The notes below the pieces were generated by a model, which saw only the letters and a list, made by a program, of their open reading frames with translations, was not told the origin of the DNA and did no database searches. Made by a program: the position numbers and the translations under genes. Shown piece after piece: positions 39,696 to 41,341 of a stretch of 54,154 bases of DNA; position 1 is the first letter of the stretch, and every line of letters begins with the position of its first letter. The DNA is from Candidatus Tayloriibacteriota bacterium (GTDB taxonomy: Bacteria; Patescibacteriota; Minisyncoccia; Phycocordibacterales; CAIRYW01). The stretch spans positions 1 to 54,154 of the forward strand of contig JARIGV010000032.1 of NCBI GenBank assembly GCA_029288615.1. Direction: 5' to 3'.

Positions 39696-40793
39696 ATGAA
39701 ACATCTAAAAAGTGATAATGTCAATAGAACAGTCTTTGTAGGCCTTTCGGGAGGTGTGGATTCTTCCGTGGCTGCATATTTACTCAAAAAGGAGGGATAT
39801 AAAGTCGTTGGTGCTTTTATAAAGACCTGGCAACCAGAATTTATTGATTGTACCTGGAAAGATGAAAGACGGGACGCGATGCGCGTTGCTGCACACCTTG
39901 AAATTCCTTTCGTCACAATCGATCTTGAAAAAGAATATAAAGAAGGTGTTGCGGACTATATGATCCGTGAATACAAAGCCGGCAGAACTCCAAACCCAGA
40001 TGTTATGTGCAATAAAGAGGTGAAGTTTGGTGCATTTCTAAATCGTGCACTTTCTATGGGAGCGGACTTTGTCGCAACCGGACATTACGCACAAATTGCC
40101 CGTCCGTCCAAGGGCAGACCTTGGACAAAAATGCTGCGCGCAGTCGATAATAGCAAGGAACAGAGCTATTTTTTGTGGACTCTTACAGAAAAACAACTCG
40201 AGAAAATCATCTTTCCGATAGGTGGTCTCAAAAAATCTGAGGTAAGGAAAATTGCACAGAAAGCCGGACTTCCGACTGCAGAGAAAAAAGACAGCCAAGG
40301 AATTTGCATGCTTGGTGATATCAGTATGAAAGATTTTCTCTCACATTATATTCCAAAGAAAAAAGGAAATGTTTTGAATGTGTCAGGTGAAGTGATTGGG
40401 ACGCATGACGGTGCACTTTTTTTTACAGTAGGAGAGCGACATGGATTTACAATTACAAAAAAGACATCTGAAGAGGAGAGACTCTACGTTATTTCAAAAG
40501 AGGCAAAGAAAAATACTATTGTTGTTGGCACATACGATGACCTCCAAAAAGAAATTGAGAAAAGCTCAAAAGATATCGCTCTTGAAAATTTTCACTGGAT
40601 AAACAGCGAGCCCGAAGAAGGAAAAACACATAATGCGCAGATACGTTATCATCAGGATTTTCAGAAAGTCACTCTCGAGAAAACAAAGCAGGGTTTCATA
40701 GCTCACTTTAAAAATCCACAGACGGCTGCATCCGGACAATCTGCCGTATTTTACGACGATGACGTCTGCCTTGGTGGTGGAATAATAAAATAG
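39696..40793 (+). CDS. mnmA: tRNA-specific 2-thiouridylase
   Basis: Adds sulphur to U34 of tRNA-Lys, -Glu and -Gln. 365 residues, normal. PP-loop ATP site GLSGGVDSS near 16-24; the two catalytic cysteines are C105 in NPDVMCNKEVKFG and C204 in SQGICMLGD; C-terminal barrel with FTVGERHGFTI and the RYHQDF element. Needs a sulphur donor chain not seen in the window. Confidence 0.96.
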   Translation: MKHLKSDNVNRTVFVGLSGGVDSSVAAYLLKKEGYKVVGAFIKTWQPEFIDCTWKDERRDAMRVAAHLEIPFVTIDLEKEYKEGVADYMIREYKAGRTPNPDVMCNKEVKFGAFLNRALSMGADFVATGHYAQIARPSKGRPWTKMLRAVDNSKEQSYFLWTLTEKQLEKIIFPIGGLKKSEVRKIAQKAGLPTAEKKDSQGICMLGDISMKDFLSHYIPKKKGNVLNVSGEVIGTHDGALFFTVGERHGFTITKKTSEEERLYVISKEAKKNTIVVGTYDDLQKEIEKSSKDIALENFHWINSEPEEGKTHNAQIRYHQDFQKVTLEKTKQGFIAHFKNPQTAASGQSAVFYDDDVCLGGGIIK

Positions 40794-40825
40794 TATAGTA
40801 ATTTCAGCATAAGGTTCTCTAATTC

Positions 40826-41010
40826 TCTGAGTAACACGCGAGGGACTGACAAAAATAAGAGGAAGGCCTCGTGGCCTAAAGCTAGTTGGTGAAAGATTAA
40901 GTAGCGCCTAGTGAACGCGGATCTTTGTTTCGTTTAGCGAAGCGGGTAACGGCCCCCCCCAAGGCTAAGATGGGTAGCTGCCTGTATGAGTTGCTGCAGT
41001 CGGCCAGAGA
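40826..41010 (+). pseudogene. Degenerate, rearranged 16S rRNA fragment
   Basis: Three conserved 16S pieces occur in the right order: CTGAGTAACACGCG (about E. coli 100-115), CCTCGTGGCCTAAAGCTAGTTGGTGA (about 205-250) and GGTAACGGCC followed by AAGGCTAAGATGGGTAGCTG (about 255-290), which is partly typical down to GAG and CAG runs beyond. Between the second and third lies about 50 bases (40892-40944) recalling the V1 region (GAACGCGGATCTTT...GCGAAGCGGGT). A run of eight C replaces CCCACC. There is no complete rRNA gene, so it is a remnant, a scrambled copy or an assembly chimera. Not coding: the open frame crossing it is fortuitous. Confidence 0.75.
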
Positions 41011-41021
41011 AAAGAAATGCT

Positions 41022-41049
41022 ATAGCCACCAGGGAAACCTGGTGGCTAT
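41022..41049. other. Perfect 12-bp hairpin with GAAA tetraloop
   Basis: ATAGCCACCAGG-GAAA-CCTGGTGGCTAT directly after the 16S-like fragment. GNRA loops stabilise structured RNA. There is no T tail, so it is a poor terminator; it may end or cap whatever RNA is made from the fragment. Confidence 0.6.
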
Positions 41050-41062
41050 CCTATTAATTGAT

Positions 41063-41071
41063 TGTTACAAT
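41063..41071 (+). promoter_or_regulatory. Extended -10 promoter of the alkyltransferase gene
   Basis: TGTTACAAT (hexamer 41066-41071); ATG at 41078 after six bases. Leaderless. Confidence 0.6.
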
Positions 41072-41077
41072 ACGCTC

Positions 41078-41341
41078 ATGAAAATAGAAACATTCCGAGA
41101 AAAAGTACTCTCCGTAGTAAAAAAGATCCCTAAAGGAAAGACAATGACCTACAAAGAAGTCGCTACAAAAGCCGGAAGACCTGGGGCTTCAAGAGCTGTG
41201 GGTACAATTATGGCGAAAAATGCTGATAAAAATGTTCCATGCCACCGGGTCATTCGCTCTGATGGAAAAATAGGGCAGTACAATGGCCTACAGGGTAAAG
41301 ACAAATTAGCACTTCTTAAAAAAGAAGGGGCTATCAAATAA
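41078..41341 (+). CDS. O6-alkylguanine-DNA alkyltransferase, catalytic domain only
   Basis: 87 residues from the ATG at 41078. This is the DNA-binding/active-site domain of Ogt/MGMT: MTYKEVATKAGRP near 23-35, the arginine-finger helix ASRAVGTIMAKN, and the acceptor cysteine in VPCHRVIRSDG. Having Cys, it should be a true suicide repair enzyme rather than the alkyltransferase-like (Trp) type. The N-terminal domain of full-size Ogt is missing. The longer frame beginning at 40925 runs into the 16S-like DNA and is rejected as start. Confidence 0.88.
   Translation: MKIETFREKVLSVVKKIPKGKTMTYKEVATKAGRPGASRAVGTIMAKNADKNVPCHRVIRSDGKIGQYNGLQGKDKLALLKKEGAIK

Follow-up and report, generated by a model that had tools for sequence, protein, structure and literature searches.

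Ribosomal protein (r-protein) synthesis is subject to autoregulation by leaders of r-protein mRNAs that mimic rRNA and act in cis. Another example of rRNA-like sequence outside the usual rRNA genes is found in the mitochondria of Plasmodium, where separate rRNA pieces stand in for full rRNA. Fragmented mitochondrial rRNA of this kind, with short rRNA-like genes scattered in the genome, is the subject of one account (PMC3382252), and rRNA mimicry is touched on in two further articles (PMC11109978; PMC10931766). In the present work, a 16S-like sequence was analyzed that lies between two protein-coding genes in a 54,154-nt stretch of DNA (the window) from a Candidatus Tayloriibacteriota bacterium. 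This sequence is very probably a gene for a structured noncoding RNA, some 245 nt long and free-standing, that belongs to a family present in this order of small-genome bacteria. Its plan comprises a closing stem, a 16S h7/h11/h12 subdomain (model positions ~108-309) and a terminator-like hairpin; h8-h10 have been pruned from the core, some members carry a hairpin insert in h11, and the closing stem is formed between the 5' end and the linker that precedes the terminator. The reading as a whole, that is, a family of free-standing RNAs that are akin to a 16S subdomain and act in trans as rRNA mimics, appears probable on balance.

The resemblance of the spacer to 16S rRNA is real, but it is not that of a scrambled relic. 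A profile of 31 small-subunit (SSU) sequences gives a single match in the 54-kb window (40944-40981, E 6.5e-4), and the score of this match is never reached in 1000 dinucleotide-shuffled versions of the spacer. In a true 16S sequence (L031), AGCTAGTTGGTG abuts GGGTAACGG; in the window 52 nt separate these two blocks, and block A (GAGTAACACG) is located upstream of both. A covariance model (R1) trained on three relatives described below (L090, L098, and L100) plus two 16S sequences, the window being left out, aligns 40827-41005 end to end with 41.6 bits (E 9.3e-7 for its genome, where only the true 16S scores higher). This alignment, together with the pair counts presented below, establishes h7/h11/h12 pairing homologous to that of RF00177, the SSU family of Rfam. 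The Rfam SSU model reports nothing for the window, neither at its gathering score nor at E<=10, and the sequence is an isolated spacer element and not a full-length SSU rRNA (~1500 nt) in an rRNA context. A preliminary description of this DNA had recorded a scrambled 16S fragment, starting at 40826, between mnmA and an alkyltransferase gene. The placement is confirmed by Pfam domains on both sides; the claim of conserved blocks in 16S order agrees with the profile, the L031 comparison and the R1 alignment; and the hairpin with its perfect stem of 12 bp and its GAAA loop is indeed present. The term scrambled has to be dropped, for the order is kept and the actual departures are the missing h8-h10 and the 52-nt hairpin insert in h11. 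The start was also placed slightly late, as the resemblance noted from 40826 is genuine but the element begins at about 40806. The piece between blocks, described as V1-like, is this same h11 insert, made of two hairpins; a V1 origin is ruled out by its counterparts in L133 and L152, where a TAAGTA motif and hairpins occur at the same h11 site as in the window. Taken singly, the three inserts do not fold better than chance (z +0.74 for the window, -1.65 for L133, and -0.82 for L152). The features of the locus are collected in Table 1.

Table 1. Coordinates of the element, its parts and the flanking genes in the window.
Feature	Position	Strand	Basis or remark
mnmA, upstream neighbor	39696..40793	+	Pfam PF03054, PF20259, PF20258
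Weak promoter-like pair, TTGGTG (40771-40776), 17-nt spacer, TATAGT (40794-40799)	40771..40799	+	by eye
Entire putative noncoding RNA (~245 nt), presumed ends	40806..41049	+	extent given by closing stem and terminator-like hairpin; R1 match; P1 test
Closing stem P1, 5' strand AGCAT	40806..40810	+	pairs with 41017-41021; also in unconstrained minimum free energy (MFE) fold
16S-like CTGAGTAACA lead of subdomain (E. coli ~105)	40827..40836	+	R1 alignment
h7-like stem, 40837-40843 with 40867-40873; loop in place of 16S h8-h10	40837..40873	+	
h11-like helix with 16S internal loop, interrupted by insert	40875..40974	+	
52-nt h11 insert: stem 40892-40897/40921-40926 beside TAAGTA; second hairpin around 40927-40943	40892..40943	+	
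h12-like hairpin, 40977-40980 with 41001-41004 and 40982-40986 with 40995-40999	40977..41004	+	unconstrained MFE
3' linker ending in P1 3' strand ATGCT (41017-41021)	41006..41021	+	
Terminator-like 12-bp hairpin, GAAA loop, poor T tail	41022..41049	+	
Alkyltransferase-like gene, downstream neighbor	41078..41341	+	Pfam PF01035

The spacer (40794-41077) is flanked by two co-directional genes and holds the 16S-like blocks. The promoter-like pair overlaps the mnmA stop and scores under the threshold of the promoter scan. Folded alone, the element reaches an MFE of -87.2 with P1, h12 and the terminal hairpin present and h7 and h11 absent; its 16S-like fold, at -80.3, is 7 kcal/mol worse. The assembly is a draft of 38 contigs, and the genome's own 16S, on contig C33, is cut by the contig end inside the gene. 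Conserved 16S blocks are chimera-prone, and foreign 16S reads might have been joined into the contig during assembly. This explanation is extremely improbable: mnmA, the alkyltransferase gene and alaS follow in the same order in another member of the family (G003), so the flanks are joined correctly; a scan of the genome contig set for an intact donor gave 0 matches; and similar elements occur in 13 other assemblies. In G003, the mnmA-alkyltransferase spacer (L034, 1100-1480) has an unrelated small open frame of ~100 aa in place of the element, and no R1 match was found in this spacer, nor at the mnmA locus of G001. A relic of operon loss, also proposed in the preliminary description, is refuted for this genome because its own 16S on C33 persists with h7, h11, and h12; the suggested comparison of the two sequences shows only short words in common.

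Relatives of the element have been found in other genomes of the order. Through an order-wide BLAST search (397 genomes), L090 was found in G501. It is an isolated match to RF00177 that covers positions 108-309 within 123 nt, has a short hairpin where 16S has h8-h10, and scores 63.1 bits (55.4 in a second run) against the gathering score of 50. This element has a TATAAT box, clearer than that of the window, and a strong terminator; its fold lies 3.5 sd below shuffles, and its unconstrained fold includes h7 and h11. ARAGORN recognizes neither tRNA nor tmRNA in it. L090 (1557-1735) is also the longest element, and its long 3' part carries a T-loop-like hairpin, GTTCGAATCC. The family of its genome yielded L098, L096, and L100; in L098, h11 carries an insert where that of the window does. 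Covariance models were used because MAFFT alone misaligned the insert-bearing members: R1, and a second model (R2) built from five elements, the window included, and run on 39 chosen genomes, the places found being sorted by the 16S profile. Both were searched within the order. These searches gave 14 isolated elements outside 16S genes, in 14 genomes of eight families: the window (G000) and L132 (G001; the same place as L131) in f1; L133 (G440; L098), L134 (G501; L090), L135 (G626; L100), and L172 (G573; L096) in f212; L136 (G757) in f213; L137 (G636) and L150 (G587) in f9; L148 (G634) and L165 (G731) in f5; L152 (G058) in f56; and the weak L153 (G491, f51; 23 bits) and L154 (G496, f57; 22 bits). 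Besides the window, therefore, 13 genomes (11 firm, two weak) from seven further families plus one family mate carry the element. L172 is split by an N run with the same 17 bases on either side, probably an assembly gap.

R1 has a match, mostly true 16S, in 302 of the 396 genomes of the order sample, and at least 13 of the 396 bear an element (12 recovered via the models and G573 first via BLAST); this is a lower bound because only genomes with multiple hits or an odd single hit were followed, with nine candidates scored per genome. Among 41 near relatives including the window's genome, a second R1 match occurs in G000 and G001 only, and in the own family of the window's genome one of three other genomes has the element. 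Given this patchy distribution, the element is dispensable or fast-evolving. Other matches were set aside. In each of G446, G465, G486, G495, G500, G538, G623, G657, and G690, the second SSU match is a 16S gene, genuine or truncated, and not an element; some assemblies (G657, G690, G538, G623, and others) hold two different 16S genes or pieces, and are possibly mixed bins. BLAST matches L089, L091, L093, and L011, in protein-coding sequence as read, and L092, which adjoins an open frame, were taken as chance, as were three matches in phages and plasmids at E 3-9 and two phage contigs (L083, L084) that fit the gap pattern and have nothing else in common with the element. Rfam matches to STnc630 (E 1.6) and an HDV-like family (E 3.4) were rejected. 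E. coli genomes gave no match, and 0 matches came from scans of the genome contig set for the exact junction and of the viral contig set for the element core.

The stems of the elements are kept by compensatory change. Over the 14 elements and 27 pairs (343 cells), 91.8% are standard pairs vs. 78.8% in shuffles, and 20 of the 27 pairs have changed on both sides vs. 7.6 in shuffles, in an alignment that was fitted to the structure and so leans toward it. None of 500 shuffles is as high on any of five pairing measures, sliding the partners lowers pairing to 31-50%, and all seven pairs of h7 show changes on both sides across elements. The same three helices, h7, h11 and h12, emerge when six of the 14 elements are aligned with MAFFT and folded with RNAalifold with no structure supplied, and 12 of 29 pairs then show compensatory changes. 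The P1 pairing between leader and linker has been tested by exchanging partners, with terminator starts picked by eye and L135 (contig edge), L153, and L154 omitted: with 11 elements one of 10,000 permutations is as good, and with 10 (L134 omitted) none of 20,000. With five pairs, P1 of the window is short, and when the 10 leaders are ranked by their fit to the window's linker, the leader of the window itself comes second.

These data bear on the idea of a degenerate, functionless 16S pseudogene fragment, derived from rRNA duplication or transfer, to which the 16S blocks, altered by a deletion and an insertion, and the patchy distribution would correspond. Such an origin is very improbable, since the pair counts, P1 and RNAalifold point to stems still under selection, the same subdomain is found every time, and the host 16S is not the source. 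Furthermore, under strict filters RF00177 matches lie on one contig per genome in 47 of 59 genomes of the phylum, with no lone fragment from another part of the gene. That the relatives stand alone at other places in other genomes makes it probable that these are functional RNAs of one family and not remains of a damaged ribosomal gene. From the four options first offered (operon-loss relic, insertion hot spot, stable noncoding RNA, and assembly artifact), the stable noncoding RNA is thus the one that fits; a relic or a chimera leaves unexplained the compensatory h7/h11/h12 changes in 14 elements, the co-varying closing stem, the insert site shared by three elements and the 13 other genomes.

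The elements have evolved separately from the 16S of their hosts. In a tree of 73 columns with 30 SSU sequences and 12 elements (L153 and L154 being too weak), 15 of the 16 SSU sequences of the order form one clade (SH-aLRT 96.3, bootstrap 97), which contains none of the elements; the only SSU of the order outside is L163 (G657). Host 16S is therefore not their nearest relative. The h11/h12 junction reads GGGTAGC in nine of 12 elements vs. TAGGGG or TAGAGG in 15 host 16S. The elements do not resolve as one clade, so they could have one or several origins, and a transferred 16S may be their source. The letters of the 16S 790 loop (GGATTAGATACCC) form part of the terminator hairpin, in its loop region, in L135 (minus strand) and L150 (799-817). 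It is quite possible, if somewhat short of probable, that the 16S subdomain was copied early on into a gene of its own, either ahead of the 16S radiation of this order or outside it, and that the copy then turned into a trans-acting regulatory RNA that tunes ribosome assembly, in which case the RNAs of L135 and L150 would each display two 16S sites. Another loop sequence, AATTCTAGAT, is common to the terminators of L132, L133, L136, and L137 despite differing stems; a pseudoknot between this loop and the leader, sought by eye, was unsupported.

The gene neighborhoods of the elements vary. They include mnmA/alkyltransferase in the window (by Pfam) and what the translations suggest to be secD, tsaE/polA, rpsO/xerC-like (around L090), dnaE/rnhB, serS/dprA-like, and gyrA/methyltransferase. 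Most members have a terminator ahead of the next gene, and no r-protein gene was seen downstream in the loci read, the rpsO of L090 being on the other side and on the other strand. A cis-regulatory leader or 3' UTR element serving a flanking gene is very unlikely in view of these varied neighbors and intervening terminators, even if the position between co-directional genes and the T-poor hairpin of the window would suit it. Action in trans, as an rRNA mimic, is instead suggested by the differing neighbors. The protein bound might be one of 30S assembly, a proposal that we make tentatively and with some doubt. The folded h7/h11 subdomain would bind a protein that recognizes it in 30S assembly, and the element would titrate or sense the free pool of this protein. 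The first candidate would be uS17, which contacts h7, h9, and h11 of 16S (PMC3359968). The absence of h9 from the element argues against uS17, and the weak promoter, T-poor terminator and h7/h11-free MFE of the window, together with the patchy distribution, argue against the mechanism.

Another possibility, which we take seriously without expecting it, is that the same RNA family has bS20, bS16, a maturation factor or an rRNA-modifying enzyme as partner, or that its linker base-pairs with a target. The linker sequence CAGCATAAT is common to L132, L135, and L136, and ACAACATAAT is found in L137; in the remaining members the linker is unconserved, and its end belongs to P1. Alternatively, the RNA could be a ribosome piece supplied in trans, as a split or alternative rRNA replacing h7/h11/h12 in some 30S subunits. 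The nearly complete subdomain and the preserved letters of the h11 internal loop are compatible with this, but the own 16S of the genome has the region, h8-h10 are missing and the h11 inserts would be hard to fit, all of which makes it quite improbable. A family of free-standing RNA genes that keeps a folded 16S subdomain would demonstrate that independent regulatory genes can arise from rRNA, and it would provide a testable handle on ribosome supply in a little-studied lineage of tiny genomes. Moreover, lone "16S fragments" in small genomes would not necessarily be debris or contamination.

Neither Rfam nor searches of the open PMC literature turned up a description of such an RNA family, which is weak evidence of novelty as subscription papers are largely outside it. 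With 6S, tmRNA, and RNase P RNA, to which it gave no match, the element shares being free-standing, structured and terminator-ended. It resembles the fragmented rRNA of Plasmodium in consisting of scattered short genes; here, however, a full-type 16S retains the region. The likeness to RF00177 is confined to the 5' domain (108-309) and comprises the GAGTAACACG lead, h7, h11 with its internal loop and h12, in order, whereas the elements are short free-standing genes that have lost h8-h10, carry h11 inserts, a closing stem and a terminator, and fall outside the host-16S branch. Finally, like the rRNA-mimicking r-protein leaders, the elements are predicted to display a copy of a site at which a protein binds rRNA; those leaders act in cis before the r-protein genes that they regulate, whereas the elements stand free beside unrelated genes and carry a much larger piece of 16S.
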